The notes beneath the pieces are model-generated. The model had not been told where the DNA came from. It saw only the letters and a list, made by a program, of their open reading frames with translations, and did no database searches. Below are positions 19,331-64,000 of a DNA stretch of 64,000 nt, in pieces. The stretch's first letter is position 1. Every line of letters starts with the position of its first letter. The position numbers were made by a program, and so were the translations under genes. This DNA comes from Macrolepiota albuminosa (taxonomy: Eukaryota > Basidiomycota > Agaricomycetes > Agaricales > Agaricaceae), in NCBI GenBank assembly GCA_027475525.1, contig JAMWFC010000126.1, positions 806,001-870,000 of the forward strand, written 5' to 3'.

Positions 19331-19340
19331 TGCATTGCAG

Positions 19341-29500: not shown

Positions 29501-30180
29501 TGTCCTCACTGGAATCAATAGAATGAGATTTGCTCCCTCTAGTGTCAAGGCCATTGAGCCTCAATGCATCTTCCTCTGCATGTATGCCTAAGCTTTGAGC
29601 TTCAGGATATGCATATAAAAATCAATATATTCTAATAAGTTTTCAGGAGATACAATTTCACCTCTAGCCTGTACCATATGAATGTGTTTCAGCATGTATA
29701 GTCCTAACCTTGTCCAAGTAGTATCCCTGGCAATTGCAGGGTACTTGCCCCACACCAATGACATCTGCACTTGTAAAATTGACCCATGGTGTCCACTCTC
29801 CTCATTGTTCAATGTTTCCTGATCTTTCCAGTAGACCTCTGATGCCCCCTGCTCTGGGCCATCGGCATTGATTCAATTAGTGCCTGAGTCTGACCCATGT
29901 GTCCTATCTGTAAATTGTGAAGGTCTTTGACCTTCCAAGACATTCCAGCTCACAGTAGCTCTTCCAGGCCTCATAGGCGGGCGACCCCCCCTACTACTTA
30001 ATGCTGGAGTGTCCCATCTTGCTTGTGGGTTGTCATGGCCACCTGCTGCCTGGGCTGGCCATTGCTTGGTCCACTGAGTGCCACCTGGCATTCCTTGTGG
30101 CTACAGAAGAGTACTTTCTGCTGCTGCCTCACCTGATGTTTTGAGGGGCAGCCCTTGACCTTGGTCTGCTGGCGGGACTA
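26559..30180 (-). pseudogene. gypsy-1 Gag, decayed and split by a solo LTR
   Basis: Gag coding segments run from about 30180 (Pro/Gly-rich N-terminal part) through 29812-29366 (ENLLEYIDFYMHILKLKA, PGESEKQFATKFHA) and 28766-28400 (LPEFLDGPAKNWF, MQDARDAFVNTAF, YPDSWVMID). After the nested LTR they resume at 27440 (FLRGIPDAMREFL) and reach a zinc knuckle at about 26990 (CFYCGKAGYFARKC), where the expected His is Tyr. The order matches Ty3/gypsy capsid and nucleocapsid. Stops are numerous, so the gene is dead. Confidence 0.82.
27444..28398. mobile_element. Solo LTR (955 bp) inside gypsy-1 gag
   Basis: The ends are TGTGGCAG (27444) and CTACCACA (28398), a TG...CA pair with a short inverted repeat. 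The flanks ATGT (27440-27443) and ACGT (28399-28402) look like a 4-bp target duplication with one C/T change. Removing the insert and one flank makes gag continuous (VMID to FLRGIP). Inside there is no coding sequence; a T-rich stretch near 28060-28110 could hold the polyadenylation region. No second copy of this LTR is in the window. Confidence 0.75.
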
Positions 30181-30364
30181 TCAGATACATAAACAACTAT
30201 GTGAAAATCTTATTTTTATGGTCAAACTCAGTTTGCTGATGAGTTGACATCCTTGTCAGCATGTCAACTAGAGTTAATGTTCATAATTCCTATCAGTCTA
30301 GACTTAGTTCTAGACTCATAATTCTTTTTGTAGGCTGAAATTGAACCTGAAAGGTTCAAAAAAG

Positions 30365-30629
30365 TGGAACAATGTCAATAGCTTACAGTCACACCACAGA
30401 ACCAGATCAATGTTTGATTCAGTCCTATGAGTAGTGTAACAAAAAAGCTACCTTATATAAGGTAGTAGCAATGAGTGTACATAGTATATTATGTAATTTA
30501 GTAATATAGCAATTATGGCAATATATATTATGAAGTCTCGTCTGGATCTACTGAACAACATGAAGGTTGTTCAGCAACAACACGATTAAGGTTAGACTTA
30601 GTTCTGAGGCTCTAGATCACTTGGTTACA
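30365..30629 (-). repeat. 5' LTR of gypsy-1
   Basis: 265 bp, TGGAACAATG at 30365 to GGTTACA at 30629, followed by the target duplication AGCGT. It preserves the TG terminus lost in the other copy. Confidence 0.9.
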
Positions 30630-30633
30630 AGCG

Positions 30634-32340
30634 TATACACAGTTCTTGTATTGAAACTCTGTCTCTGGTAATAGGTTACTACAGTCATTCTGTTGTTCAT
30701 TGCAGAAGAGCCAGAGATACTGTTCTAGCTCTTGGTTGACACACTTGGTCTAGCCATCAGACTGGGAGTGGTAGGCTGTGAAAGTGTGAAGTTTAACATG
30801 AAGGAGGCAAAACAGTTCTCTGGTAAACTCTGCCACAAACTGAGGTCCATGGTCTGAGATGTAGACATCTGACAACCTATGGAGTTTCCAGACATGCTTC
30901 CAGTACAGATTAGCAGTGTCTATAGCAGAGCAAGTAGTGTGTGTTGGAATAAAATGAGCATGCTTGCTACAGAAATCTACTACCACCATGATCATGTTAT
31001 ATCTATAAGAGTCTGGTAACTTGACAATGAAGTCTACTAAGGCTATACTCCAATGCTCAGCTGGAATGGACAAAAATTGAAGCTGTCTCATAGGAGGCTG
31101 ATAACAAGGCTTAGTCTGAAGGCAGAGATCACAGGTGGAGGTGTAGGAGCCAATATACTGCAACATTTGAGGCCACTAGTAATTCTGGGAGACCAGCTCC
31201 AGTGTTTTCCATCTGTCAGGATAACCTGCAACCAGAGAGTCATGATGCTGCTCTACAATCCACCTCCAGAGGTCTGGCAGGTTGAGAACATAAATGCACT
31301 CCTGAAAAGTGAGAAGACTATTCTCCAAAGACCACTTGTAAACCAGACATAGAGATCCATCCTTCTTCTTAATAAAGAAGACTTGAGAGGCCATCAGAGA
31401 CTTTGAGAGGCAAATGCAATCAGAATCTAACTTTTCTTGCAAAAAGGCATCAAGCTCATCCTGTTTTTTTGGGAGAGATAGGATAGACCTTGCAGCTAGA
31501 GGCTCAGCATTAGGCATGAGCTCAATAGCATGGTTCCACTGCTTATGTTCTGGCAGGGAGTCAAATGATGCCTTAGAGAAAACATCTTCAAAGTCTTGCA
31601 GGTGATGAGGAACTGCATTTTGGAACAACTTAGGAGCAGAGTTAGCAGCAAATGCCTGAGCTAGCTGCTGGAAAGTAGTTTGGCTAGCTCTAATCTCTGC
31701 TACAGTTGGTGGAGGTCATAATGTAGTTGCATAAATTCTATCACCTGTCTCAATAGCCTTGTCTGGAGCACACTCAAATTTACCCTTGCATCTATCTTCC
31801 ATCTGAGCTTCACTTACTATACCTCAAATGTCCTTATAGAAGGCCTCTTTATAAGAAAATGCTAAGGTGGGAGGATCCAGTAGGTCAATGTCTGCAAAGG
31901 GGAAGTGTCCAACTCAGCAAGCCTGGATAGCAGCATGCTCATAGACCAACTCTCTATGCTCCTCTCTAACTTTCTTGGCACATGTGGAACATCATCAAGA
32001 GCAGTGGCTCATACTCACCTTACTCTTGGTCTAGCCAATCTCAGGATTCTGATCATGCAGCCAGGAGAACCCAAGTATTATGTCCTGCTTTCCTAGGCTG
32101 GTGACTGCAAAGACCACACATTCAGAATGAGTCTGATAACAAAGAACTAAATCCACTACTGAGCAGATGGATCTAGCTTTATTAAGCATACCATCAATAT
32201 TATAGACTGAAATAGAATAAGAGAGGGGTCAGATAGTAAGCTGGTGTTGTTCCACATAATTGATGTTCAGAAAGAGTCCAGTAGTACCACTGTCCAAGAG
32301 AGCTATGACACTTTGAGTCTGCTAAATATCAGTTGTCTCA
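30634..32340 (-). pseudogene. gypsy-2 Pol: protease, partial RT, integrase
   Basis: The protease motif ALLDSGTTGLFLN is near 32310, with GKQDIILGFSWL at 32080. The RT N-terminal part (MASQVFFIKKKDGSLCLVYKW) at 31400-31330 stops abruptly, and the frame jumps into the integrase zinc domain (HHDSLVAGYPDRWKTLELV, CDLCLQTK), so most of RT and all of RNase H are deleted. Integrase then shows IALVDFIVKLPDS and YISDHGPQF, and SDG-stop-TKCVNQELEQYL, where the usual catalytic Glu position is Lys. The last codons before the gypsy-1 insertion are at 30640. Confidence 0.85.
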
Positions 32341-32579
32341 ATCTCTACATTCAGACACAGAGAATTGGGAGAAGAAGTGGAGGCAACAACATAGCAATGA
32401 GGAAGGCATTGTTTCCAAGCTGAGACACATGGTTGTCAGACAGGAGAAGGAGAAGAAGAGGAGGTCTTAGCTAAGGCGTGGACCAAGAGGGTATTTTGTA
32501 TGTTGGAGGTGCTTACAGTTTCAGTCAGAGAATCATGAACAGGGAGCAATATATTAGAAGATTCTACTGATAGACATGT

Positions 32580-33791
32580 GAACCAATCAGCACCAAGCAG
32601 CAGAAGCATACAACTTATTCATCACTCTATTGAAAATCCTCTTCTGCAGAACCAAAAGACCCATCCAATGGTTCTGCTACAGCCTCCACAGGACCCAAGG
32701 ACTTCTCCAAAGATTCTGTTTCAGTCTGTACATTTGAGGAGAGGTTTTCATGAAGGTCTTGGGCAGCAAGAAGCTGGAGAAAGGGCTCTTCTTACTCTAA
32801 GACTAAGAGATAGTGCACCTCCAACTCCTGGAGGCAATATCAAGCAAGGTGACCAGGCTTTTCACAGCAATGGCAGAGGAGAGGAAGAGAGGAATGTTGA
32901 CAAGAGATGTCAATATCCATAGGTACTCTGAGAGGGAGAGAGATGCCTATGAGGTAGAGTGAGGGACAGTTCTGCAGTAGAGCTTACATTATAACTTCAT
33001 GAGCTGCCACTGATTATGTGCTACCTGATACCAGGACTCAATACTTGTATTGTCAGATTGTCCCTCAGCCATGCTGTTGATCCAGTCTATGAGAGAGGGA
33101 AGGAGGCCATCTCAGAAGATGAAACAGAGCTGAAAACCATCTGGATAGCAGGCCTGTTCAGCAAAAGCTCTGAAAGAGTCAATATACTAATTTAAGGTCT
33201 GCTTCCCCTGTCCATATCAATGAGGGTCTTGGAGAGTGAGGACTGCTACCTTGGCAGAGTCCAAGGGGAAGAATTCTCTTTGAAACTCCTTTTTAAACTG
33301 ATTCCAACTTCCAAAACTATCTACTCCTCCAGAGCATTAAAAAACTTATAGTATGTTTGTCAAAGCTTGCACTGACTTTATGTAGAAAAGAACCCAGGCA
33401 ATCTTGAGAGCATTGGAGGGGAAAGCCTCACCACTGAGCTAAATATAGGTGACACATAACTGCAGGAAGCACTTGCCTATGCCTTGGTCACCATTAAATG
33501 CACCTAGGAGTGCTGAGCAAGGAATATTGGCATGAACTGGGGAGGAGGCCTGAAAGCAAGGAACTGGAGGTGCCTGGAGAGGAGTAGGAGTGAGAGGGAG
33601 GCACCCTAAGAGGGCCTGAAAGAAATGGGAGATGGTGTCTGTAGCCTGATGTAATCCAGCAAGTTTGGTGGTGGAGAGAGTGAGGAAAGCTTAAGTAGTC
33701 TTAGCCTGAGTCTCCAGAGCAAGCAACTCCAGGCATCATTCTGAGGGGCAGAAGCATCCAGGGGAGCACTTGAGGGGGCTGGTTGGGTCAT
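32580..33791 (-). pseudogene. gypsy-2 Gag, decayed
   Basis: The frame starts MTQPAPSSAPLDASAPQ at 33791 and is recognisable in pieces. The zinc knuckle near 32870 reads CHCCEKPGHLA-stop-YC, a CCHC motif broken by a TGA that would be CGA before C-to-T decay. Order and position upstream of the protease fit gag. Confidence 0.65.
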
Positions 33792-33966
33792 AGAAACAAC
33801 AGAGGAGCAGGGAGTAATCCAGTGGAGGAGTGACCTAAAGAGACAAGAGAGGGCTCAAGCAGGCTGAAGGGGACTACCAGACTAAAATGTAGAGACTTGT
33901 TCTGCTGCAAGAGTGACCTCTGGAGGCTGTGGCTCAGTCACACAGCTGGCAGAGGGAGATCCAAAG

Positions 33967-34423
33967 TGTATTAGAGTATGTACTGACAATATCATAATAA
34001 CTACCCACCTGGCAGAGGGAAATCCAAAGAGAACAAGTCTAAGGATTCTCTATGCTAGATTGGACACTTCTGGGGCCTCTGAAGCATGGGAAACAAATGT
34101 ACAGTACAACAAAACCTTAAAAATTTGAAAATTGCCTAAATAAACAACTATGCAAACAAGGCAGGAAAACTCTGGACTTTGGAAGTCAAAAAGGCAAACT
34201 CCAGCTTATATACGCAGTCTGGAAGCAGTGCTGAAGGGCCACACTTGTCTGAATAATAGCTAAAAAACCAGAGCATTTCAAAGGCTGAGAATAGTACTAA
34301 CAAATAGTGTTGAGAGAATAGAAACAGCAAAATAAGAGAATGATAGAAGAAATAAGAAAATGAATGAAAGTAGAGTAAAGGAATAGGGAGTGAAAGAAGG
34401 AAGAAATAAGGAGTCCTCTGACA
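33967..34423 (-). repeat. Probable 5' LTR of gypsy-2
   Basis: Boundaries are inferred: TGTATTAGAG at 33967 and CTCTGACA at 34423 give TG...CA ends with partly inverted termini. The element strand has a TATA box (GTATATAAGC near 34212). Inside the LTR end the sequence continues CTT then TGGATCTCCCTCTGCC, a plausible tRNA primer site. The partner 3' LTR is not seen, so the inner edge is uncertain. Confidence 0.5.
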
Positions 34424-37361
34424 AGCACATTTTTTCAACTTCATTTGGTGTTTTTGGAGAGTTAGCTTTAGAGAGGCAGACTCCTGGGTTGAGTGGTGTG
34501 GCTACTTCCTTTGAGTCAATTATATTGCATTGTGAGAGGATTTCAATAGCATAGGCCTTTTGATCTATCCAGAGTTTATATTTGGCATGATTGTGAGTCA
34601 TGATGACATCCAGTAGACTAGTAGTGGGTTCTGGATATCTTACCTTGAAATACTGTTGAAGCTTATCAATGACTTTGAGAGTTGCTGAGCAGGACTTAGA
34701 AGTTAAAGTCATGTCATTGACGTGCACTGAAACAATAATATAGATGCCATCTCTGAGGTATACATAAACATATTGATCAGATGTGATGTGAGTGAAACCC
34801 AGCTTAATGAGTACCTCATGTAATTGTTTATTCCAGAGATTTGCACCCTGACATGGATCATAAATTCCCTTCTGCAGTTTGGCACAGGCTTCTCCATTAT
34901 TGGGTTTGCACTAGATATCAGGTAGTATTTACTCTGAAAATCCCTCTCAGAATTTCATATAGAGTTCTGTATCAATGATGCCATAGAAAAAGACAAAAGC
35001 AATATTGACAGATTTTAAGTGCATATTATTCATTGCTGCGAAGGGCAGAACTATATGTACCACTATTCAATGTGCTATTAGCACAAATGTCTCATCAGAG
35101 TCAACTTCAGAGCACTGGCTGAATCTCTGTACTACTATACGTGCTTTAAAACATTCAATTGTGCCATCAGGAAGGTGCTTAACCTTGAATACCCATTGTT
35201 ACTCGATGGCTTTCTGTTCTGCAAATAAGTAGACTGCACATCAGGTGCCATTACTCTTAAGCAAGTTCATTTCTTCAACTATAGTTTTATGCTATTTCAC
35301 AGCATTTTCTTCTGTCATTGCCTCATGAAAAGAACAAGAGTTAGTGTTATGTGCACCAACTTTATATACACATGCCATATTGGCATAGATAGCACTGAAA
35401 CTTGCTGAATCAATACCCTGTTCCATATGAGCTTGGCCAGCTAGAAGTAGGGCCTCATTGGAGTATATGTTGAGGATGAGGTCACTTCCTGCTCACTATA
35501 GCTGTCAATATTCTCTATGGTGATCTTCTACAGTGGCTGCTCAAGTGGCTCTTTCAAGTATAGTGAAGATAGCAGTGGTAGTAGTAGATCATATACAAGT
35601 AATGATTCATAGTTTTTTTGGCATTGAATAGCATCATAGTAGTCTGCATTTAGCTATGTTGGTATTTGTATACATTGGCTGTATTCATAGGGTAGTGGCA
35701 ATAGTTGTGGCTAACATGGTGTGCATATTTAAGGATTGGGTTCTGCTCCCACTGTTGAGTAAGCATCTCCCACTAAATTCAGATCTTCACTGTTACTAGG
35801 AAGAGGTGTGAGTAGCTTGTCAATGTCAAGAAAATCTGTATCTGATGTTTGTTCTTTCTCATTGTGTGCAATGTGTATATCTAAATTGAATTCAAGATCA
35901 TGGCTTGGTAGAATATTCAATAAATATTCCAAATATTGAATGACCTTGCAGTCCTTTTCTTTTATTACAACTCACTAGCATGTATGCAGCACAACCAAAC
36001 ATACAGAGGTGTCCAACACATGGCCTTTTACCCTTGTACACCTCAAAGAGAGTCTGATTGTGTGCAAGTGCTGATGTCAGATAGTAATTATAGACGTGGC
36101 AATATGAGCTTAGAGCATATGTCCAGAAACTTGATGGAAGGTTAGCTTTTGCTAACATTGATGTAATTGCTTTATTAATTGTTCTGTCAAGTTGTTCTGC
36201 AATGCTGTTTAGTTAGAAAGTAGCTGTGTTGATAAATTCAACTCATATCTCCTCTGATCTGCAGAAATCCATGAATTTATTTGAAGTATACTCACCATCT
36301 TTGTCAAGATATATGCATTTGATTTTCTTCTCCATGTACCATTTAGCTTGAGCTTTGAAAGACTTGAAGGCTGCTAGTGCATTGCTTTTCTGTAGCATAT
36401 CATAGACTTCTATTCATTTTGTACTATCATTGGTAAATGTTATTCACCACCTACGATTTGTTTGGTGTCTGCTTATTTGCATCAGCCCATGCACATCACT
36501 GAAAACCCTCCCAAGCACCTCTGTTGCTCTATCTGTTACATGAGAAAAAGAAGCTCAATGTTGTTTTCTTTGCAAGCACAGTTCACAGACATGGGTCAGC
36601 GTAGAGCTTGACAACAGCATGAGATCACTCATGAGCTCTTTCTGAATCAGCTGTTTGAGCCTGTCAGCACCTAGATGACACATGTTTCTGTGCAGCAGCA
36701 GAGATCTGTCTATCTTTGATGAAGATATGGGTCTGAGATAGGATATATTTGCAGTGTGGAATGGTGACAAAACAAGTGTTTCATCATCTAAGTAGTAAAT
36801 CAAAGTGTCATCAATAAAAGCTGTAAAGATTAACTTGTTCTTAATAGAAAAGAAAACTTTGCATCCACAAAAGGTCATAACAAAACCACAGTGTACAGAG
36901 AGTAAAGTGATAGAAAGTAAATTGTTGGCTAACTCAGGTATGAACAGGACATTTGTGAAGACAATGTTATTTAGCAGTTTTTTATCCTGATTCTCTTCTT
37001 TCAGTCTGAACTGTACTCATTCCTTTCCAGCTGAATACAAAGTCACATCATTTGTTAAATGTCTTGGCACTCTCCAGGGTATGAACATGCCTGGAACAAA
37101 CCATTCTCAATGTGGGATCATAGAACTTATGGTGCCAGAGTCTGCATTCCACAGCAAATTAAATGGGGTAGTCAGTGGTAGAAAAGATCTACAAACTGCA
37201 GCTTCTGCCTTGACAGCTGGGCTATTGCAACTTTCCTCAACTTTTGAGGTTTCTGCAGCTTTAGCTGCTGAGTGTTCTTCATGGTGGCCTCCACAATTTT
37301 TGGATTTGGAATTTTCATCCCCTTTTTCATGTGGGTGCGTGCAGACTAAAGAACTAGACAA
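34424..37361 (-). pseudogene. copia-2 Pol, decayed and truncated
   Basis: On the minus strand: protease NADSGTISSMI (about 37120); pre-integrase zinc region LLLHRNMCHLGADRLKQLI...CELCLQRKQ (36720-36560); integrase C-terminal part (MLAKANLPSSFWTYAL, CAAYMLV) at 36150-35990; RT with HVNDMTLTS (34720) and YAIEILSQCNIID (34540). Copia elements normally have a DD pair at the HVND site, so the second Asp-type change is another G-to-A loss. Many stops and frame changes. Confidence 0.83.
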
Positions 37362-37399
37362 TCTATAATTTTATATTCACTATCACAAAGATAACATTT

Positions 37400-38065
37400 G
37401 ATTATTCAAGCAGCGGCAGCGGCTGCTGCTGCTGCTGCTTCTTCAGTTTCAGTTTGCTGCACTTTCTTAGTTCAAAATGCCTCTTCAACCATGTCATTAG
37501 TAAGGTTGTTAAGCATCAGAACTGATGAGATAAATGGCACATAGTTGTCATGAGGTAAGGCACATAGCATTGCCATTGAGCAGAGTTCATCATCAAGCAT
37601 CTCAAAGGTATAGACAGGTTTAAGAATTCTATCAGGCCCAAGAATAGGTGGGGGTCTGAGTATCTGGATGCATTGCATGATCTCTTTAACTCATGTGCAA
37701 AGCTGTGTCAGAGTCTTGTTGTCATGCAGATATATGTTGAAGAGATCACTTAGTGAATTGAAGTGTGCATTGAGTGCCAATTTTGAGTGTACTTCCCTAA
37801 GTTTTGCCCACATTAGTGCAGGCTTGCTTCAGATTGCATCTACATGGATTTTATTTCACTCATGTAGCCACTGGTAAATCTTGCCTCCTGCACTATCACT
37901 TCAGAGCAGGTAAGAGTTCCAAGCATTAATGGAGACAGAGTTGTTCGATTCAAGAAGTGGCTGTACTTCTTTACCAGTCACAATCTGTGCTCCATCAACT
38001 GACATCAGATGTCTGAACATAGCCTTTTCCCACTCTGTGTATTTAATGACCCTGAGTTTTGCCAT
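37400..38065 (-). pseudogene. copia-2 Gag, decayed
   Basis: The ATG at 38065 starts MAKLRVIKYTEWEKAMFRHL, then GGKIYQWLHE, MWAKLREVHSKLALNAHFN and FEMLDDELCSMAMLCALPHDNY, typical of the copia Gag capsid (UBN2-like) fold, with several TAG/TGA stops. The C-terminal part includes a GCT/GCC trinucleotide run (about 37411-37440). Confidence 0.8.
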
Positions 38066-48849: not shown

Positions 48850-50560
48850 CCTGGGATAACGGCCGTTATCCCGTCACTCCTTGTTCTCAAGCTAGCAGTC
48901 TAGGATTTGAGTGGATCACTTAGGTCTAACAGGAAAATATGTTTCTAGACCTATTCCCCTTTTCTACCAACCAACCAATAAGTCACATGACCTCTAGATC
49001 CTTTGCTATGTCCCAATCAATAAGGGGGTCTAAAAGTTGATTTTTTTAAGCAGTAAATTGTAAATATCTCAGGAACTACTATAGTATATGCTGGATCTGT
49101 GGGTTGGTAGAAAACCGGTTTTTCAAGGGCTATCCAAAAATAGCCTGATTTCGAAAATCCACCCAGTAGTCCATGAGATAATCCAGGAACAATCCAAGTT
49201 TTTTGAGGTCTGATATTGTTAAAATAGTATACTCCTTGTTCCTGGGCTAGAAGTCTAGATTTTGAGCAGATCACTTAGGTTTAACATGAAGATATGTTTC
49301 TAGACCTATTTACCTTTTCTACCAACCAACCAATAAGTCACATGACCTCTAGATCATTTGCTATGTCCAAATCAATAAGAGGGTCTAAAAGTTGACTTTT
49401 AAGCAATAAATTGTGAATATCTCAGGAACTACTCTGGTATATGCCAGACCTGTGGGTTGGTAGAAAACCAGTTTTCCAAGGGCTATCCAAAAATACCCTG
49501 ATTATGATAATCCACCCAGTAGTCCATGAGATAATCCAGGAACAATGCAAGTTTTTTGAGGTCTGATATTGTTAACATAGTATACTCCTTGTTCCTGGGC
49601 TAGAAGTCTAGATTTTGAGCAGATCACTTAGGTTTAACAGGGAGGTATATTCCTAGACCTATTTGCCTTTTCTACCAACCAGCCAATAAGTCACATGACC
49701 CCTAGATCATTTGCTATGTCCAAATCAATAAAGGGGTCTAAAAGTTGACTTTTAAGCAAGAAATTGTAACTATCTCAGGAACTACTATGGTATATGCCAG
49801 ACCTGTGGGTTGGTAGTAAACCAGTTCCTCAAGGGCTATCCAGAAATACTCTGATTTTGAGAATCCACCCAGTAGTTCATGAGATAATCCAGGAACAATG
49901 CAAATTTTCTAATATCTTGTATTTTCAAAGCAGAGTAGTACCCCTTGTTCCTGGGATAAAAGACTAGGATTTGAGCAGATCACTTTGATCCAACAAGGAA
50001 ATATGTTCCTAGACCTATTCTGCTGGGCAACCAACCAGCCATCAAGTCACATGACCTCTGGATCCTTTGCTATGGCCCAATCAATAAGGAGGTGTAAAAG
50101 TTGATTTTCCAAATAATAAATTGAAAATATCACAGTGGCTATCATAACATATGCTAGACCTGTGGGATGGTAGAAGTCCAGTTTCTCAAGGGCTATCCAA
50201 TGGTACCCTGCTTTTTTATTTCTGCACAGTAGTTCATGAGATAATACAGGAACATTGCAAATTTATAATATTTTATATTTCAAAATAGTATATTCTTTGT
50301 TTCTGGGCTAGAAGACTCAGATTTGAGCAGATCACTTGGCTCTAAGAAGAAAATATCTTTCTAGACCTACTTTGCTTGCCAACCAACCAATTATCAAGAC
50401 ATATGACTTCTGTATCCTTTGCCACAGCTCTATCAATATGGGAGTCTGGCAGTTGATTTGTTTAGAAGTAAATTGTACATATCTTAGATCTACCCTAGTA
50501 TATGCCAGACCTGTAAGCTAATAAAATTCTCCAAAAGCTATTTAGAGATACTTTGATTAA
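48850..50560. repeat. Satellite array, about 355-bp unit, about 4.7 copies
   Basis: The phrase CTCCTTGTTCCTGGGCTAGA starts units near 48879, 49234, 49587, 49943 and 50295 (spacing 355, 353, 356 and 352 bp). Copies diverge gradually, most at the right end. The units are AT-rich and nearly free of CpG. GTCACATGAC occurs once in each of the first four units (48982, 49337, 49690 and 50046). No ORF is conserved between units. An AT-rich transition continues to about 51200. Confidence 0.92.
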
Positions 50561-53715: not shown

Positions 53716-54634
53716 TGATGCGAAATGTAAGTTTACTTATATTGTAAAGTAGCCTTAACGGAATAAGACTAGACTTTTAAATAAGTCAACTTAACTTCAC
53801 TAAGATCGTGGGGCTTAGTTACGCGCACGCACACTCCGTAAAGTAGTGTTGTTATAATTTTTATTGATTTTAAAATTGTAATGCAAATCAAAATTCACAC
53901 TAAAATTTGGGAATCAAATAGTATTAATTACTAATAAAACCCGAAGTCAACTATTATGCGGCTGGCCTAAGATGTCCGCTCCCTGGGGACTCCGAGCCGT
54001 GGCAAGTGCGTTGCTTGCCCGACTCCCCCAAATTCCCCTCCTCTTTATACTGCCTCCTTCGACGCACGGACCGTCGAATCCCTCGTGTATTTTTATGTTG
54101 TGCGCACGACTGGCGCTCGGCGTAGCGTTGTACCGGGTCTGGACCTCGGTTGCTGTTTGTGCCGGCGCTTGGCGTCGTGGCTAAAGGTTCGTCCATCTTT
54201 TTCTTCGGCTCTTCCTACCCTTCTAACTCTTTGGTTATCCTTCTTCCTTCTTTTGCCAGAGCGGCCTGTCGTGGTTGCGTGGTCGTGGTACAACGTGTCG
54301 AGGTGCTGAGGACGAGGCTCATCGTTGTTTCCAATGGTACGTCGTCACTCGGGGATAGTTCTTTTTGATGGTTGATGCCGGATCTGACTGCCGAGCACCG
54401 CCACTGTCGGCTATCCCCTTTGATCGGATATTCGGCGCATCTCTACTTGGCTGTTTACGTGCTGGGTTCGTCGTTTTTACACGTCGTGAGGCTTTTTTTT
54501 TTTGAGGTGAAGGCTCCCGCGTCTACAGTTTTCGACGCCTGCTTACAGTTTTCAGCAGATAACCGTTTGGTTTGTTTGTTTTTAGGGAGCCTTTCTTGTC
54601 TTTCTTATGCCTCGATTTAGAGGCATTCGTATCA
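53716..54634 (-). repeat. 3' LTR of gypsy-3 (919 bp)
   Basis: The edges are TGATGCGAAATG at 53716 and CATTCGTATCA at 54634, an inverted pair TGATRCGAA(A)TG. A TATA box for the minus strand (AGTATAAAG) is at about 54042-54050. It contains an 80-codon minus-strand ORF (54196-53954, MDEPLATTPSAGTNSN...) repeated in the other LTR; significance unknown. The right edge is inferred from termini and polypurine tract, because the other LTR copy is cut off. Confidence 0.8.
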
Positions 54635-54646
54635 CCTCCCCCACAC
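54635..54646 (-). promoter_or_regulatory. Polypurine tract of gypsy-3
   Basis: GTGTGGGGGAGG on the minus strand directly precedes the LTR start TGATACGAATG, as expected for plus-strand DNA priming. Confidence 0.75.
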
Positions 54647-54851
54647 TATGTAATGACTGTCCTCAGTCATCGTAAACCAGCCTGGTGAGCCCAGCCTTTC
54701 CATTTTCAATTTTCTCCGAGCCAAAGTCTTAAAATTTGTCTTCCGTATCTGCAGTAGATAGAGAATAAAATTTTTCGCTTTTCCCTCTCCTGAGTCGTTC
54801 GATCATACCCGTACCAGCTTAAAACGACGATGCCTGCCCTCATTCCTGAGC

Positions 54852-56131
54852 ATGGCTCCTTCCGGTGTCCCCACTGCTCCTCGCAAGTCTGCAAACGCTA
54901 GACCGCGTCCTCAAGTCGTCATTTCGACCCCTCCAAAGCCACCTGCTCCGCCTCCCCAGCCTGCGCCTGTTCCGACGGATTTTTATGGCTTGTTCCAGCG
55001 CGCTGTCAAGCGCGATGGCAACAAGGTTATAACGTCCGTGTTCAAGTACCCATGGTTCGCAGAGGCTGCAATTGGCCTCTGTGCCACTGCCAGGTCTTTT
55101 CCTGGAACACCTGCCGACCGTGCTCGGTTCTTAGGTGGCGCTGGCTGGGTCTGTTCTTCTTTTTCCCTCTTCCCCCTTCCGTCTGATGCTTTTCACAGCG
55201 TTTTGCTGATGAGAGCACCTTTGGTCGTCTCTCTGAACAGAGAGGTCTTTGCGAGACTCTCTCCGGCATCCTTCCCTTACTTGATCGCAGTGCCGCTGAT
55301 GATTCGGGCGACGTGAAGGCATTCTTTTCCTTCGTTGACGCTTTCCTCGTCGTTGCACAGAACGAAAAACTTAGGAAGGAGCGCGAGGAGGTAAGTTCCC
55401 CTTTCAGTTCCTCTACTTGTAATCCTGATTCTTTTGCTACAGGTACTGCGTCGCGCACAGGACAAAGATGTCGAGATGCTCGGTACGCCTACTCCGCGCC
55501 CCGCAAAACGCCGTGCTAACGTAAGTTCTAGCTCGCAAGCTTGACTTAGTTGTGCGTCGCTTGGACACGCTGACGTTGTCTCTTCCCCCTCCTCAGGTCG
55601 AGCCCGAGGGGAAACCAAGGGCAAAGAAACTCAGGGTGCATCCATCACTTGGTGCGTTCCCTTTGTTATCTTTCGTTGTCCCTTTTCTCATCCTTCTTGT
55701 CACCCAGCTAGCCATGTTCCTGGTAGCGAGGCAGCACTGGCGCTACTTTCCGAGGTGGACCAGGTCTTGGACGCGGTCCAACTGGCTGACGACGACGACT
55801 CCGTTCCTCAAGCTGAACTTCAGAGGCACTGCGACGCGGTCGACGTAGCTGCACAGCTTCAACTTTACCAGCTTGACATCGTGCTGCAGACCTTCAAGAT
55901 GATCTCCGAACGCCGTGCGCGTCTCAGCAAGGTTCTTGGTCCCTCTGAGGTTGACCAAGCTGGCTCGTTGCTCCACGCGCTTCAGGTCTCCTTGCCAGTA
56001 TGTCCTTACTTCTTTTCTATTGTCAGGTCTTATTACTTTTTCTGTTTGTTTCACAGTCCGGTAACGACGACTCCGATATTGAATTTCAGGACCTCCCGCA
56101 GGACGCAACCGAAGACGCCGTGGCGGTATAA
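54852..56131 (+). CDS. Six-exon antisense gene inside gypsy-3, unknown function (328 aa)
   Basis: Exons 54852-55148, 55199-55390, 55443-55520, 55597-55651, 55708-55997 and 56057-56131. All five introns (50, 52, 76, 56 and 59 bp) are GT-AG (donors GTCTGT, GTAAGT, GTAAGT, GTGCGT, GTATGT) and all phases agree from ATG to TAA. The protein has a Pro-rich disordered start (TPPKPPAPPPQPAPVPTDFY) and a compact region (LFQRAVKRDGNKVITSVFKY, PWFAEAAIGLCATARSFPG, FLVVAQNEKLRKEREEVLRR). A basic nuclear-signal-like segment follows (RPAKRRAN, KPRAKKLRVHP), then a helical C-terminal half (LALLSEVDQVLDAVQLAD, LQLYQLDIVLQTFKMISERR) and an acidic end. It is CpG-rich, unlike the pol gene next to it. I do not recognise the family. 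It runs opposite to gag-pol, so its introns would stay in the element's genomic RNA. Confidence 0.82.
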
Positions 56132-56831
56132 AAGACTTCCTCGTTGCAAACACCGATTCTGTGTTTGCCTAGTTTAGTCTCAATATAATCCCCCCCCTTC
56201 CCTCTTTACTTCGTAGTACCCCAATATATTCCTTAAGTCCGAAACGTGCGATGTTTAAGTTTTTGATTGATAACCACACGTTTCGTTCTTTTCTTCGGAA
56301 TTTTATTTTATTCCCCCCCCCTGGGGCTCGAACTCTCGACACACCGTCTCCCCATGCTTTTTCCTCAGTTTCAAACTTGAACGCTCACTATTTTTAGTCA
56401 ACGTTTTTAGTTCTTTGCTGGGTTCGAACTCGCACGTTGGCCTGCTATGCCCATGTCTACGTAGACCTTTTATCCCCTGCCTGGTTTCGAACTCGCGCGT
56501 TGACGTATTGTGTCAACGCTCGACTCTTTCTTAGACCACGGGTTAGGTTCGTACTAGAACGTCGGCGCCTTAAATCCTTATTAAACCATAACCTTTTAGT
56601 TTTTAACTCGCACATTAGCACTTTTGTGCTCATGTCCCATTGTAAACTTAATTAGTTATGGTCTTAAATCAAGGATCTTTTCTGTATTTGAGTGGTAGCC
56701 AGTCTTAGACTAGTACTTTTCTTGAGTGCCTCTTCCTACTGACCACCTTTTTCTCCTTATACTGTTAAATCCTGCCTGGGCCTGAACTATTGTTATTTCT
56801 TTTTAGAAATATAGTTCATCTTTTCTGGATT
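56132..56831. repeat. Region between antisense gene and pol, with imperfect GTTCGAACTC repeats
   Basis: No gene. A motif close to GGTTCGAACTCGCACGTTG recurs about every 50-65 bp (near 56327, 56370, 56421, 56482, 56547 and 56600), becoming weaker to the right. It resembles a tRNA B box but no tRNA fold is seen. The last 230 bp are AT-rich and CpG-poor like pol. Confidence 0.55.
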
Positions 56832-59800
56832 TTAATCAGTTGGAGACAGACCCAACTCCTGGTCAGTGGGCTCATGGAGCCTTACTGTGCCAAAGGAGAT
56901 GTCCTTGGTGATTAGCTCTGTAGGTTTTCGTAGTTCTTCCCTTAGCTCTTTTAGCTTAGCAGGTGTAATATCCACCCACTTCTCTATGCCTTGAGGCAAG
57001 ATCAGCTTTTTACGAGCCTTGTAAGGTACAACTCGAAAAGCAGCTACCCGTGCTTGCCAAACTGACCCATCTAGTTCTGCTACAATGTAGTTACCACCCT
57101 GAGTCTTGGCAATTACTACCATAGGCCCATGGAATCGTGGCAACATCTTAGCACTGAATGAACTTTCTGTAGTCATGTTTTTGACTAGTACCAAGTCTAA
57201 TGGTTTAAAATTGAAGTCTTTGATTGAGCTTTTATGCTCTTCTGCAAACTTCAATGCCCACTGGAGCTTAGCCTTCCCAACTCTCTCTCTCATTTCCTCC
57301 ACATGTTGATGGTGTTTGGCTAGAGCTCTAGCACGATATCCAATCAACTCCCCTGTAGTCAGAGGTCCCTCTGGTAGTTCTACCAACCAGGTGGCCTCTG
57401 CTAGATCCAAGGGTAGAGTAGGATGTGCACCAGTGACCATGAAGTATGGTGAGCATCCAAACCTCTGCCTAATGGTTATCCTGTCACTCCACATTACATG
57501 GTAGAAGAACCAGAACCATTTAGTGCGATCCTCACAGGCCTTGAACAAAGCTTGCCTGACATCCCAATGAGGTCTTTCAATTCTACCATTAGCTGGTGAG
57601 TTGTAAGGGGAGATAGTAATACCTCTAATCCCATACTTCTTTTCCAACCAGGCAGTGACCTGCTTGAACTGTCCAGCATTATCTGTGATGATTTCTGCAA
57701 TGCAGCCCCAGCGGCAAATCACATCTTCAAACAACCATTGACCAATGGTCTTATGGTTCTCCTTCCTCAGGGGTCTACCTTCCATCCAAGAAGACAAGGC
57801 ACACCTGCCATGTACTATGTACTTACAGCCATTGGAGGCTGGTGTCATGTGCATGGTATCAATGTGAATTGTTTGGAAGATGGAAGGAGTATAAGTTACA
57901 GTTGGTTCTCTGTTGACTACTGTCTTTTGTCTGATTTGACAATTGTGACAAGTCCCAACATACCACTGCACATCCCCTTCAATGCCAGGCCACCAGAAGC
58001 GCTCCTGTATAAGCATTTTGGTGGCATAGGCTCCCCTATGTCCTAAGGCATCATGGGCTGATTTAAGCATGAACATTCGTCTATCAATTTGGACTACTAG
58101 TTTATGTTTCTCCTCATGACAGCGCTTATACAATCTCCCTTTCTTGTCAAAGAAGAATTGCCTAGCAAACTTCTTAAACTTCTCTAGATCCCAGCCTTGT
58201 AGATTCTTGGGTTCTGTACCTGGGTCTTGCAACCAACTCTGAACAGTGGGTAGCAGATTATCCCAGTCTTCACCCTCACTACCTTTCCTGTGTTCTAGGT
58301 AGGTTTGTGTGTCCTCTACTCTGACTTCTTGGTCTTCCACTGGTAACAGAGGCATGGTCATAGCTAATACTGCTACTGGGTTCATGCTTGTTCCTGGGGT
58401 TTGACTCAAGATGCCATCCCTAAGCTCCTGCTCTTGGGACCTGGCTCTACAAAGTTCTTGCTCAAAGTCTGATACTTCAGTAGCTACCATGTTTAGATAG
58501 CCACCTCTAGTGTCAATTTGATCTGCAAACTCTTCAAGTTCCAAAGGTTCCCAACCCTCCCAACCAGGTATATTATTGATCTTGTCTGGATACTCATAGT
58601 TCATAGACTTGGGTTCATCCATTAACTCAGGATCAACTGGTGGGTACTCCTCATCTCCTGGTTGTTTAGGCCGTCTTGACAATCCATCCACACTGAATGT
58701 TTTGCCTGGCACATGCCTTAAGGTAAAGTGGTAGAGTAGGACATTCTCAATCCATCTCATGATGGTGGCATTGGGTCCTACTCCAGGATTTCCTAGCATC
58801 CCTTTAAGATACTTGGCATCTGTCTCTATCACTAGTTTTCTACAACCAACTAGCCAATGCTTGTTGGCTAGCAGAGATCTCATGAGACCATACAGCTCTC
58901 TTTTTGGTTGAGAAAATCTAGCTTCTCTCTCATTCAGGGTGATAGATCCTAACTTGGCACAAGTGCGCATTTTAGGATTGTCTGGGTCTTCTTGGAAGAT
59001 TCCAAAACCTACTGCCATCCAGGATGTATCCACTGACAGAACTACTGCACCTCCTGACTCATAGTCAATGGGTTTTAAAGGAGCACTTTCTGCTAGCAAC
59101 TTTTTCATTTGTGCCATTGCAGAGCGCTGTTCTTCTCCCCAAGTAAAAGGTACATTATTCTGAGTAAGTTTATTGATAGGTGCTGCTACCTTAGCATAAT
59201 CCTTGATAAAGGATCTAAAGGTACCACAGGTCCCTAAGAATGACTTTACTTCATGTTTATCCCTGCAGTCACCCCATCCCATCACTATGGCAAATCTCTT
59301 GGTCTCTGGCTTCTGCCCTTCATAAGAGCATCTATGGCCAACAACCACAATCTCATCTGCACATACTACTGACTTCTTTCCAGAGAAAGTCCCTCCTGCA
59401 TATTTGATTCTTTGTAACACTCTATTCACATTGAGTAGGTGTTCCCATACAAATCTCCTAATGCCTGGATTCTCTGGTATGACTTCACAGCTACCATCTG
59501 GCAACTCATATCTATGAGGTGGCCCTCTGACTGGTACATCATCAATGTATGGCCAAGTTACATGTGGTATCTCATCCTTCAAGATGAATGTAATATCATC
59601 ATGGAAGATAGGCACTGAATTTGTCCATCCCATTGGTAAGGTAACCAACCTCAGAGCACCAAATGGTGTCTGGAATGTAGTATAATCTCTAGAGCGCACA
59701 TCTAGTACTCTCTCATCATATCCTACATACAAGTCAAAGATTCCTCCACAAGCCCTGCCTGAGAAGTGACTAGCTAATTCCTCAGTTGCTGGTGGCAACC

Positions 59801-60667
59801 CAGAATGTGCTATGGTCACTTTATTCAAAGGCTCCAAGCTATGGACTATCCTCAAGCTTTCACCATCCTTCTTTAACACTGTAAACCATTGGGAGCGATA
59901 TGAGGAGTTAGAGGGCTCATAGACCCCTGCCTCAATCTTCTGCTTTATCATTTGGCAGATTCTATCCCTAAGGCCTGGGGCAATAGGAATGTTCTTCAAC
60001 ACCCAAGGGGTGTGAGGTATTACTGGCATGATTACTGGAGGGAAGAATTCCTCCTTCAGCCTTCCTCTTTGAGCATCATCCCATGCAAAAGCCTGGTTTT
60101 GCAGCATCATAAGGTGATGTACTGCTTTCATCTCCTCTGGCCAAAGAAAACCATCACCATGGGCTTGGTCAATGACTTCTTTGCACTCAGCTGTGTATCT
60201 CCCTGTGGGTTTGAACTCTGGTGGATTGGGATCCAACTGAGGCATGTCTGCCAGTGGGTCTCCAGTAATGCACCTTTCAATTCTAAACTCCTCAGGTGAG
60301 GTACCTAGTACAGGCTTAACTTTTCTAGCCACAGGTTTGTATTTCTTAGAAAATACTTGGGCAGTCTCCCCCACACCTGCTTTTGACTCTAAGTTTTCCT
60401 CTTGTACTAGCAGCTCCTCAAGACTGTCAGGTATCTGAGCTAAATGCCCATTCAAATATGCTGACAATGTCTTCTGCTCCTTCTCTTCACACTCCTTGCT
60501 TGCTGTAAAAGCATGCAAGTACACATCTCTCAACTCTTCCTGACTGAATTTACTATGTTCCATAGAATATCCAGTCACCACAATCTCCCCTTCCTGAGTC
60601 TCAGCAAGACTTATTGCAATCTCTCCCTGGTCTGTAACCAGTTCCTCGAGACTCAAAATTTTGCTTC
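56832..60667 (-). CDS. gypsy-3 Pol: reverse transcriptase, RNase H, integrase
   Basis: This frame is open for about 1,275 codons. RT: an N-terminal part with VYEPSNSSYRSQWFTVLKKD, motif A FDLYVGYDERVLD, PMGWTNSVPIFHDD and the catalytic YIDD (about residues 360-370). RNase H: LSVDTSWMAVGFGIF, ETDAKYLKGML and FSVDGLSRR. Integrase: zinc domain HDALGHRGAYAT...CHNCQIRQ, and a catalytic core with IHIDTMH, IITDNAGQFK and NGRIERPHWD, so all three acidic residues are present. No chromodomain is recognised at the C-terminus. There is no ATG at the start. The frame opens after a TGA only a few codons upstream of 60656 and lies in -1 relative to the protease ORF, so translation by frameshifting is expected. 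CpG is almost absent (two counted in 58021-58500) although the ORF is intact. Confidence 0.93.
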
Positions 60668-61705
60668 ACTCTCCCTAGCAGCCCCTGCCTTTGGCATTTT
60701 GCCTCTTTCAATAGTAGGCAGGGCAGTTCGACGACCTGTATTAGGGTCTCGAATGGTGATGATGGCGCTGCCATCCTGCAAGTTTTGAATGTTGCTTTCT
60801 GTCAAGGTGTCAAATGGACGACCCAATAAGACAGTATAAGCAGGACTCTCAAAAATATGCACTTGTAGATAGATAGTGAACCCTTCTGCAAAAGTGAATG
60901 GCACATTACGTGCTAAACCAACAGATTCATTCACTTGCTGATTGGCACTCTCCATCCTCAGCCTAATGTCTGGATCCCAAGTCAATCCTAGATTGAGAGC
61001 CTCTCTTAAAGCCATGCAGACTATTTGAGATCCACTATCTAGAATTGCCTCTGCTCTTCCCTTTTGATTGACAACTGGGTTGAGAGATCTCAGAACCTGC
61101 AACTCCCTGGCTACATATACCACTACTGGCTTTTCTCCTGTTGGGATATTTTCCAAGTAAGTGGCAACACAATCCTGGTGCACTACTGCACCAGTAGGCA
61201 AGCCAGATTGTGTTCCATCTGCAATGAAGTAGGTGGCCATAGGTAGATCATTAACATCTACCTTGTTAGGCTCTTTCTCCACTGCTGTCAGGTGTTGAGT
61301 AGCTGTCCTAGGAATATTGGGTTCCTTAGGCCTGGGAGGCTTTGGTACCAACTTTTGTACCATGACCTCCCTCAAACCAGGTGCCACATCCAGAAGTTCT
61401 CTGGTGGTTAGTGGCACTGGTACCTCCCACAGCTTCTCAACCATCTTCTCCAGCTCCTTCCTAGTTCCCTGAATGGAACTCCTACCAGTGTCCTGCACTG
61501 GTACCTCCTGCCTCTCATTCAAAGCTGGCACCTTTTCAAAAGGTAAGTCCAACTTGGGTGCCACTTTGGGTGGAATCCTCAAAGTTAGCTTTTCTTTCCA
61601 GGAATTTTGTGGCTGCCTCTCTGGAAATGTGGGTATCCCTGGTGGAGCTTCCCTCACTTCCTTCCTTGAGCTCCTCAAAAATCCTTGGACCCTCCTTGTT
61701 GTCCT
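60653..61705 (-). CDS. gypsy-3 protease ORF
   Basis: About 341 codons are read after gag in the -1 frame. The N-terminal half is Pro/Lys/Glu-rich (ELLDVAPGLREVMVQKLVPK). The aspartic protease part starts EAILDSGSQIVCMALREALN, with the flap-like region and VLLGRPFDTLTE, the usual retropepsin pair of DSG and hydrophobic-hydrophobic-GR/D motifs. It ends ESEAKF with TGA at 60655-60653. It has no ATG near its start; the frame is open from a TGA about nine codons upstream of the gag stop, so it should be made as a Gag-Pro fusion. Confidence 0.88.
   Translation of the reverse strand, partial: RTTRRVQGFLRSSRKEVREAPPGIPTFPERQPQNSWKEKLTLRIPPKVAPKLDLPFEKVPALNERQEVPVQDTGRSSIQGTRKELEKMVEKLWEVPVPLTTRELLDVAPGLREVMVQKLVPKPPRPKEPNIPRTATQHLTAVEKEPNKVDVNDLPMATYFIADGTQSGLPTGAVVHQDCVATYLENIPTGEKPVVVYVARELQVLRSLNPVVNQKGRAEAILDSGSQIVCMALREALNLGLTWDPDIRLRMESANQQVNESVGLARNVPFTFAEGFTIYLQVHIFESPAYTVLLGRPFDTLTESNIQNLQDGSAIITIRDPNTGRRTALPTIERGKMPKAGAARESEAKF
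60655..60662 (-). promoter_or_regulatory. Candidate pro-pol -1 frameshift site
   Basis: The protease frame ends GCA AAA TTT TGA and pol continues in the -1 frame through the same bases (AAA ATT TTG). An upstream TGA in the pol frame limits the shift to about 12 bases, which contain AAAATTTT. This is not a perfect XXXYYYZ heptamer. Confidence 0.55.
61675..61681 (-). promoter_or_regulatory. Candidate gag-pro -1 frameshift site
   Basis: Gag ends GAT TTT TGA; five T's (61681-61677) let the Phe tRNA re-pair perfectly one base back just before the stop. The protease frame is open in -1 across this point. Confidence 0.55.
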
Positions 61706-63246
61706 TCACCAGGACTAGGAGCATGCCTGGTGTTGACTAAGACTGACATGACTTCTGTCAGTCTTTGAAAGCCTTTTTCCAGTTCCCCTAGCCTGTCTGC
61801 CTCTCCATGCTGGATGCGCTCCAACATGTCATCCCTAGTATCTCTTACAGCATTGGTGTAAGTAGAGTAGGTTGGGATGTCTTGAGCTTCCTCAGCCCAG
61901 CCAAAGTACAACCCCACTTGAGAGTCATGTAACTTCATTACTCTATCATGTGGTGATATGCTTGATGGCTCTCTGGGTAGAGGGGCTCTGTTGGGCATCC
62001 TGGTCCTTCCATCCACTAGTATCACCCATCCCTTTTGAACATCTGATTTCACCTGCTCACACTCAGCTATACGATGACCAGTTCCCCAACAGTAGAAGCA
62101 GTATGTGCTTCCACCAGGGGTTGGCATCATGGCCTGAGCAGGCCTCTCTGTTTGCCCTCCATGGTGGCTTTTGGTAGTTAGGAAGGCATTCCTTATGTCC
62201 AGTTGGCTATTTTGCAGAGCCTGCATAGCACTTTGGATGCTGCCAACCTGCTTCCCAATAGCAACCATGGAGTCTTGCAGATGAGCCATCCTTTCTTCTG
62301 CCTCCTCATTTTTCACTACTACTCCACCCACCTCCCTGTTGGTGGTTTCTCCCCTAGTCTTCCTGACAGTTGTCCCATCTACTAGGGCTGTCACTACTGC
62401 AATCACTTCAGACAAGTCATATTTGTTGTCCTTGTGACGATTACGAGCAGGATCCCTGTAATGGCCATGTTTGTGGATGAGTCTCTCCTCCACTAACTCT
62501 GCCAGGGTGGGTGTAAAACACCCCATAAACTTATCCACCAATACCCCATTCCCTACAACACTGTCCAGCTTTTTGGCTTCAGCCCTGAATTTTCTGATTA
62601 AGGAGTGCAGCTCAGGGGCATCCCCTCTGCTTAGCCTGGCATGCTCCCTACAGATCCTATCCAGGTTTGCCATGCTTCCTGCCTCATCCATAGCTTCAGG
62701 GTATGATTCCTTAACCTCCTTTATAAAGGTGGCCCAAGGATATCTATCCTCAAAACTATCGAAACCTCTCCATTCCTGCTCAGTTTCTGCATCCACATAT
62801 TCTAATAACCTCTTCTTCTTTTCTCCATCCTCCACAATGCCTGCATGATTGAATAGAGACTGCATTCTCTGCAGAAACCTGTGAACCTCAGCAGGCTCAC
62901 TGCTTCTGAACTTAGGTGCATCTCTACTTTCAGGCAATGGCATTTTATAGCGCATGGGTTGCTCCATAATGCTGGTCAACTTAGTTGGCTCAGACAATGA
63001 AGACTTAGGTGTTTGTGGTGTAGGCGTGTACTTCTCAGTCCGAAGTTTTCGTTTACGAAGTACAGCGTCTGGATCCGGGAGACTAGCAACTGTGCCCTTG
63101 GAGGATGCACGAGTTTCTCTTCTCCTGGGAGAAATAATGGTTTTTGCCCTTGGTGTAGTAACCTTAGGCGTGCCGGGCCAAGAACCTGGCGGTGCGAAAC
63201 TAATGTTTCTTTTTGGGTTTTTGGACTCCAAATGGAAGTCCGACAA
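61675..63246 (-). CDS. gypsy-3 Gag
   Basis: An open frame of about 523 codons. The N-terminal part is basic and Pro/Thr-rich (PRAKTIISPRRRETRASS, RKRKLRTEKYTPTPQTPK). The capsid-like part is helical (AEVHRFLQRMQSLFNHAG, LDRICREHARLSRGDAP). The zinc knuckle CFYCWGTGHRIAEC (about residue 400) is intact. A coiled tail follows (RLGELEKGFQRLTEVMSVL). The frame has no ATG until about residue 94 (MEQPMRYKM, codon at 62967-62965). Upstream it stays open through the primer site into the LTR, so either translation starts at 62967 or a spliced leader supplies the start. The stop is TGA at 61677-61675. Confidence 0.88.
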   Translation of the reverse strand: MSDFHLESKNPKRNISFAPPGSWPGTPKVTTPRAKTIISPRRRETRASSKGTVASLPDPDAVLRKRKLRTEKYTPTPQTPKSSLSEPTKLTSIMEQPMRYKMPLPESRDAPKFRSSEPAEVHRFLQRMQSLFNHAGIVEDGEKKKRLLEYVDAETEQEWRGFDSFEDRYPWATFIKEVKESYPEAMDEAGSMANLDRICREHARLSRGDAPELHSLIRKFRAEAKKLDSVVGNGVLVDKFMGCFTPTLAELVEERLIHKHGHYRDPARNRHKDNKYDLSEVIAVVTALVDGTTVRKTRGETTNREVGGVVVKNEEAEERMAHLQDSMVAIGKQVGSIQSAMQALQNSQLDIRNAFLTTKSHHGGQTERPAQAMMPTPGGSTYCFYCWGTGHRIAECEQVKSDVQKGWVILVDGRTRMPNRAPLPREPSSISPHDRVMKLHDSQVGLYFGWAEEAQDIPTYSTYTNAVRDTRDDMLERIQHGEADRLGELEKGFQRLTEVMSVLVNTRHAPSPGEGQQGGSKDF

Positions 63247-63271
63247 AGTGTTTGTTTGTGCAACAAAAGCC

Positions 63272-63289
63272 CCCTCGCGGTGGGCTCCA
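63272..63289 (-). promoter_or_regulatory. Primer binding site of gypsy-3
   Basis: On the minus strand, two bases after the LTR comes TGGAGCCCACCGCGAGGG. It starts TGG as expected for pairing with a tRNA 3' CCA end. Which tRNA cannot be told here. Confidence 0.65.
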
Positions 63290-63291
63290 GA

Positions 63292-64000
63292 TGATGCGAA
63301 ATGTAAGTTTACTTATATTGTAAAGTAGCCTTAACGGAATAAGACTAGACTTTTAAATAAGTCAACTTAACTTCACTAAGATCGTGGGGCTTAGTTACGC
63401 GCACGCACACTCCGTAAAGTAGTGTTGTTATAATTTTTATTGATTTTAAAATTGTAATGCAAATCAAAATTCACACTAAAATTTGGGAATCAAATAGTAT
63501 TAATTACTAATAAAACCCGAAGTCAACTATTATGCGGCTGGCCTAAGATGTCCGCTCCCTGGGGACTCCGAGCCGTGGCAAGTGCGTTGCTTGCCCGACT
63601 CCCCCAAATTCCCCTCCTCTTTATACTGCCTCCTTCGACGCACGGACCGTCGAATCCCTCGTGTATTTTTATGTTGTGCGCACGACTGGCGCTCGGCGTA
63701 GCGTTGTACCGGGTCTGGACCTCGGTTGCTGTTTGTGCCGGCGCTTGGCGTCGTGGCTAAAGGTTCGTCCATCTTTTTCTTCGGCTCTTCCTACCCTTCT
63801 AACTCTTTGGTTATCCTTCTTCCTTCTTTTGCCAGAGCGGCCTGTCGTGGTTGCGTGGTCGTGGTACAACGTGTCGAGGTGCTGAGGACGAGGCTCATCG
63901 TTGTTTCCAATGGTACGTCGTCACTCGGGGATAGTTCTTTTTGATGGTTGATGCCGGATCTGACTGCCGAGCACCGCCACTGTCGGCTATCCCCTTTGAT
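63292..64000 (-). repeat. 5' LTR of gypsy-3, cut by the window end
   Basis: 709 bp matching 53716-54424 with no visible difference. By comparison about 210 bp more should lie to the right, followed by the target-site duplication. Confidence 0.92.

Follow-up and report, generated by a model that had tools for sequence, protein, structure and literature searches.

The window, by which we mean the whole stretch of 64,000 nucleotides analysed here (bases 806001-870000 of contig C27 in a 100.1-Mb genome), carries an antisense gene with five introns between the pol gene and the 3' LTR of an LTR retrotransposon. Comparison of its copies indicates a constrained accessory gene of a fungal Ty3/gypsy-type lineage, in which two conserved, mutually exclusive and in-frame choices are predicted at intron 3. 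The gene probably does a job for the element, because its protein was preserved while the surrounding DNA became very diverse.

The host element has paired TG..CA LTRs, found computationally, and a 4-bp TSD (TCAT) flanking the element, a polypurine tract and a primer-binding-site-like sequence, all read by eye. Minus-strand frames were found for gag, protease and pol, which the first-pass annotation had placed on the strand opposite the gene.

53716..64210 (ending 210 bp beyond the window), minus strand: LTR retrotransposon, Ty3/gypsy type, from the LTR pair, the gag, pro and pol frames and the pol Pfam domains
53716..54634, minus strand: 3' LTR, 919 bp, TG..CA, identical to 63292-64210
54635..54647, minus strand: polypurine tract (PPT), by eye, beside the LTR
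54653..54670, no strand assigned: palindrome ATGACTG-TCCT-CAGTCAT in the interval between PPT and gene, in 28/34 sequences, with pair changes on both sides
56832..60665, minus strand: pol frame, stop to stop, with Pfam RNase H and integrase zinc-binding domains
60653..61705, minus strand: protease frame, stop to stop, with aspartyl protease matches slightly below the Pfam cut-off
61675..63312, minus strand: gag frame, stop to stop, named gag by position
63271..63289, minus strand: primer-binding-site-like TGGAGCCCACCGCGAGGGG, recognised by eye from its position and its TGG start
63292..64210 (window part 63292..64000), minus strand: 5' LTR, 919 bp, from the LTR pair

Pfam placed RNase H at residues 509-641 of pol and the integrase zinc-binding domain at residues 866-914, and the RT region matches proteins with the same order of RT-RNase H before integrase; the assignment to the Ty3/gypsy type thus follows domain order. 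The gag frame matched no family in the Pfam search. The gag, pro and pol frames are separated by two -1 steps (window 60640-61720, minus strand), where G GAT TTT precedes the gag stop and A AAA TTT the pro stop, motifs that we take to be slippery-like.

The first-pass annotation had read the gene from an ATG at 54852 to a stop ending at 56131, in six exons encoding 328 aa, and this model is reproduced here. Its start lies 217 bp inward of the 3' LTR.

54852..56131, plus strand: antisense gene, ATG to stop, five introns, from the copy alignment and codon-level analysis
54852..55148, plus strand: exon 1, from the copy alignment
55199..55390, plus strand: exon 2, from the copy alignment
55443..55482, plus strand: exon 3, the part common to forms A and B, from the copy alignment (the first-pass exon 3, 55443-55520, includes segment A, described below)
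55597..55651, plus strand: exon 4, common part, from the copy alignment
55708..55997, plus strand: exon 5, from the copy alignment
56057..56131, plus strand: exon 6 with stop, from the copy alignment

At least 42 DNA matches to the gene were found in the same genome (40 of 51 candidates scored), and 28 distinct copies, the window and 27 others, were aligned after setting aside four that were identical and another whose gene contains a 1-kb insert; L043 and L044 lie outside the counts. Conservation of the gene and its introns in other element copies, to which the first-pass annotation had pointed as a check, is borne out by intron sites that are fixed across all 28. GT-AG is kept at intron 1 in 28/28 copies, at introns 2 and 4 in 26/28 each (the intron 2 exceptions being one GC-AG and one AT) and at intron 5 in 24/28. 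The GT-AG ends and consistent phases ascribed to the five introns therefore hold, but not the typical donors throughout: the intron 1 donor, GTCTGT, is atypical. Frames are open in 20/28 copies under model A and in 19/28 under model B (defined below), and codon statistics were taken from the 19 copies open in both. Among these, introns 1, 2, 4 and 5 differ by a mean of 42-50% per pair and the common exons by 19-27%, with exon differences of 5-23% at first, 7-16% at second and 42-51% at third codon positions. Introns thus vary as freely as third positions, and the protein is constrained. Pooled pN/pS over the gene is 0.23 and the median omega (dN/dS, a measure also proposed at first pass) is 0.11, from the 158 of 171 pairs with a defined value; such purifying selection implies that the copies that spread mostly had a working protein. 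These data confirm that the antisense gene is real and more than chance. Codon-level constraint, together with the intron phases common to the sister lineage described below, refutes in practice a chance open frame or gene-finder artefact, to which we assign a negligible probability and in favour of which the tests run gave nothing.

The third intron is where the original model needed amendment. The intron 55521-55596 works in frame as the first-pass annotation had it, but it holds coding sequence of its own and is overlapped by a second choice.

55483..55520, plus strand: segment A, basic, GTPTPRPAKRRAN, exon in form A and intron in form B, with pN/pS 0.35 in its own frame and periodicity p 0.0024
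55521..55531, plus strand: 11-base linker GTAAGTTCTAG, common to both introns, donor of A and acceptor of B
55532..55596, plus strand: segment B, leucine-rich helix, intron in form A and exon in form B, with pN/pS 0.23 in its own frame and periodicity reached in 0/20,000 shuffles

In form A the donor at 55521 would be joined to the acceptor at 55596, giving 328 aa; in form B the donor at 55483 would be joined to the acceptor at 55531, removing 55483-55531 and giving 337 aa. The two choices overlap, and both are coding and in frame; the form B intron contains GCTAAC, which we presume to be a branch-point-like motif. The stretch 55521-55596 and the 38 bases preceding it are less variable than the other introns. 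The 19 open copies have no indel in segment A or B, and their linker length varies by one base only (longer in L015, shorter in L042). Against the own-frame values listed above, the other two frames give pN/pS of 1.38 and 1.28 for segment A (13 codons) and 1.25 and 2.17 for segment B (21 codons), while the introns give 0.67-1.00 in any frame and codon-periodicity p values of 0.19-0.83. Since the copies are related, the segment p values are guides and not exact probabilities. Segments A and B are each constrained only in their own frame. Among annotated Termitomyces proteins, which are gene predictions by others, some have A only, some have B only and some are read-through forms. Of the 28 copies, 27 keep donor B and 22 keep donor A, which makes form B the more robust; the six copies that have lost donor A include L020 and L032, otherwise open in form A, and this weighs against a switch model. 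We regard the two exclusive, separately constrained choices as strong sequence-level support for the view that splicing of this fungal transposon gene is regulated.

The first-pass annotation had also argued that the gene moves with the element and keeps its introns, and the copies, with their purifying selection, agree. A pol match adjoins the gene on the opposite strand at 31 of 35 fetched gene loci, the remaining four being CpG-decayed with only ~2.3 kb beyond the gene fetched; conversely, a gene match accompanies pol at 23 of the 25 loci where pol identity reaches 95% or more, from a pol listing in which 36 of 4882 candidates were scored, so that the counts are lower bounds. Most copies thus have a coding gene on the opposite strand in the interval from pol to the 3' LTR. 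Five loci carry the gene at 100% identity with differing flanks outside the LTR and are therefore separate, recent insertions. The refutation that the first-pass annotation had set out, by element copies without the gene and a gene alone at a host locus, has a mixed outcome, as one copy with open pol lacks the gene: on C62 (L045, G000:C62:1331340-1332800), the LTR, PPT and open pol (99% identical) are kept, and the gene is missing through an internal deletion that begins just after, and leaves, the ATG. This gene-less copy weighs against the regulator model set out below. At C114:1727599, exon 6 is the sole remnant of the gene, beside unrelated sequence, and none of the matches fetched was a free-standing gene at a host locus.

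At least 11 loci represent a sister lineage whose pol is 68-69% identical. A search with exon 5 gave antisense matches 1.26-1.35 kb beyond pol at five of the 11, at 29-33% identity and E 0.03-0.23, which are weak alone, and no match at E 1 at the other six. In the one sister copy that was read, L047, a search of that single stretch with the family profile found exon 2 at E 3e-15, exon 5 at 2e-11 and exon 1 at 3e-9. Its five introns have phases 0,0,1,1,0, the same as in the window gene, and each alternative, SVSSPRPAKRKTND for A and KIQIDELFTRFAHFSLSLQ for B, is open and keeps the frame; the exon limits were set by eye, guided by splice signals and homology, and the read stops before the 3' end. 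Protein relatives numbered 19 by single-sequence search and 76 by profile search (each scoring ~8,000 candidates), and all belonged to Termitomyces strains among the matches listed. The 20 copies here form one clade, separate from 58 of these Termitomyces relatives, so that the host is probably a Termitomyces or closely related to it. The pol RT region gave 1658 matches; identity is 62-70% in the 120 listed, which mostly carry no taxon. By these comparisons the gene is old and belongs to the element lineage. A recently captured host gene carried as cargo, an origin that the first-pass annotation had allowed for, is accordingly very improbable: short host-like introns and a CpG content high relative to gag-pol would suit it, but a sister-lineage homologue that occupies the equivalent position beside pol and agrees in its intron phases, relatives listed from Termitomyces throughout and constraint across copies speak against it.

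The element consists of parts of strikingly different diversity. In 16 diverged copies compared with the window, gag-pol is 90-100% identical per 250 bp where comparable, mostly 94-100%, while the LTR and gene are 45-97% identical; four further copies are near-identical to the window throughout, and L024 has unrelated sequence beyond ~60.8 kb. Across 17 copies, mean identity changes abruptly at the pol stop, from 68% at 56800-56849 to 93% at 56850-56899. Their pol differs by 1.2, 0.7 and 6.75% at the three codon positions, with third positions differing by 11% at the C-terminus and 1-3% near the N-terminus. Median distances over the 136 pairs are 0.25 for U5-R, 0.44 for U3, 0.41 for the leader, 0.385 for the intergenic stretch, 0.24 and 0.33 for the 5' and 3' halves of the gene, and 0.022-0.051 for pol. 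Gene and pol distances show no correlation over these pairs (-0.07 to 0.10), nor do the two halves of the gene with each other (0.05), whereas U3 and leader distances correlate at 0.81; L024 and L026, for instance, are 1% apart in the gene 5' half and 4% apart in central pol. The cliff at the pol stop and the lack of distance correlation fit reassorting modules of different age, and the simplest reading would be that co-packaged RNAs recombine often, that gag-pol has spread or been homogenised recently and that the 3' modules were retained from an older time. Gene and U3 distances correlate weakly (0.27 and 0.15 for the two halves of the gene), which counts against strictly matched regulator-operator pairs.

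CpG composition divides the window element in a similar manner, with observed/expected ratios of 1.26 in the LTR, 0.99 in the gene, near 1 in the intergenic stretch, 0.22 in gag and 0.09 in pol (0.09-0.22 over gag, pro and pol; 53716-63312). Six decayed gene copies have ratios of 0.06-0.51. These values would fit an LTR and gene that remain free of methylation in copies that transpose. Of 34 sequences, 28, one of them from the sister lineage, have the palindrome beside the PPT, with a stem of 7-8 pairs in 22, 3-5 pairs in five and a broken first pair in one; the six misses comprise three sequences without that stretch and three decayed copies. At pair 7, 17 sequences have A-T and 11 have C-G, as in a covarying stem, and the palindrome is kept while the surrounding leader has diverged by ~41%.

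The basic patch and long helices attributed to the product at first pass are present, the former in the sequence and the latter in AlphaFold models of homologues. Segment A supplies half of a bipartite-NLS-like patch; with it, the basic residues fit KR-x10-RAKKL, which we take to be a bipartite NLS pattern. Segment B carries Phi-x3-Phi-x2-Phi-x-Phi, presumably an export-signal pattern, in 20/20 copies here and in 26/26 B-like segments of Termitomyces, from a set of 39 proteins with a recognisable segment. Because the same pattern recurs 2-4 more times elsewhere in each product here, an export signal in segment B is only a suggestion. In the homologue models the long helix ends at residue 168 in the A-form P0001 and at 200 in the B-form P0009, with confident helical cores at about residues 31-160 and 41-170, respectively. 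The domain and structure searches envisaged at first pass assigned no family: the products matched no Pfam family, with neither a TRP28 (PF04195) nor a bZIP match up to E 1, and a structure search with the homologue models recognised no known fold. That neither fold nor family points to a function weighs against the regulator model.

We propose that this accessory gene of the element is transcribed from the 3' LTR or leader, and that its product is a regulator whose location is switched by splicing; taken whole, we give this proposal an even chance. Host Pol II would transcribe the gene from the 3' LTR or leader. The genomic RNA is the other strand, so that the introns of the gene escape splicing from the reverse-transcribed template and persist, since LTR elements copy the opposite-strand RNA, in which these introns stay unspliced. 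The splice-switched location is less certain than transcription and intron persistence. Form A would complete the bipartite-NLS-like patch and act in the nucleus on element expression, its target perhaps being the palindrome beside the PPT, while in form B a helix with the export-like pattern would replace the half-patch and the protein would act in, or shuttle to, the cytoplasm. The 3' modules may have diverged because rarity lets a module evade being repressed or silenced by resident copies. Of the evidence for a splice-switched regulator, the two exclusive conserved segments support it best, and it has least support from the U3-gene correlation, which is weak, and from the export pattern, which is not specific. 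In a broader and rather doubtful extension, the family would keep many long-diverged 3' control modules (LTR plus alternatively spliced antisense regulator) that recombine with one shared gag-pol, as in phage immunity; the splice switch would decide whether the regulator enters or leaves the nucleus, each type would control mainly its own kind, and rare types would spread.

The protein might instead serve the element within the particle or the host without regulating it, for example by partnering Gag, counteracting silencing or directing targeting; a confident predicted helical core with no known fold and the purifying selection agree with such a role, which we consider possible but not probable, since the conserved basic patch and the exclusive splice choice point to a location switch, although one that is still compatible with it. 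We think it quite unlikely that antisense RNA is the main agent, pairing with genomic RNA at its 3' end and feeding silencing or copy-number control, with 3' modules diverging to escape mutual silencing. The gene does overlap that end of the genomic RNA, the stretch of high diversity coincides with the part covered on both strands plus the LTR, and antisense non-coding roles are discussed for other elements in the text of PMC7264820; yet codon-level constraint, the median omega of 0.11 and freely varying introns show selection on the protein, and diversity is equally high in the LTR and in the intergenic stretch past the gene.

Antisense accessory genes are already known, and the view taken at first pass, that no described fungal element has this design, was too strong given brtn in Boty and the antisense genes of plant elements and HTLV-1. 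As described in the available text of PMC11963269 and PMC7264820, the plant elements Retand, Grande and RIRE2 have antisense ORFs between pol and the 3' LTR in most copies, and Grande gene23 encodes a nuclear protein with its own promoter. They resemble the window gene in position, orientation and presence in most copies, but they belong to plant lineages and many have a TRP28 domain, which Pfam did not find in the window products; in the main text of these two papers the word 'intron' is absent and an exclusive splice switch was not found. The additional antisense gene brtn of the Boty elements of Botrytis cinerea (Zhao et al. 2011, cited in PMC7264820 and PMC8365987) is, as far as the title of the cited paper indicates, likewise an antisense gene of a fungal LTR element, but of an ascomycete one. 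HTLV-1 hbz is described, in the portions available of PMC1459196 and PMC10186651, as an antisense gene with alternatively spliced transcripts from the 3' LTR and as a nuclear regulator of viral expression; it shares antisense orientation and alternative splicing (predicted from sequence here) with the window gene but belongs to a retrovirus, its splicing alters the N-terminus and does not exchange a middle segment, and it encodes a bZIP protein, for which the window products had no match. Homing-endonuclease genes that lie antisense in group I introns and keep spliceosomal introns (PMC9548176, as far as its available text goes) also place an intron-bearing gene on the strand opposite the element RNA, but in another element class, with one short intron and an endonuclease product. 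We found no report of a five-intron fungal case with a splice switch; among the open-access papers listed, no fungal element had an antisense gene with several introns or a splice switch of the exclusive kind, though one may exist in print. Retroelements normally lose introns, and five introns shared, in matching phases, with a homologue beside a pol only 68-69% identical make the strand argument testable; the fairly uniform gag-pol and very diverse LTR-plus-gene of one genome bear on element recombination, mutual control and escape from silencing.

Several GGTTCGAAC-like motifs, resembling a tRNA B box by eye, lie between the gene and pol at 56320-56560, and by eye they are present in L045 and L046 too. 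Elsewhere in the window, five direct repeats with ~353 bp spacing at 48876-50461 are AT-rich and CpG-poor and decay from one end (100% to 73%). A 20-kb stretch at 18001-38000, with CpG observed/expected mostly <0.2, lies between host-like stretches at ~0.8-1.0 and probably consists of old methylated repeats.
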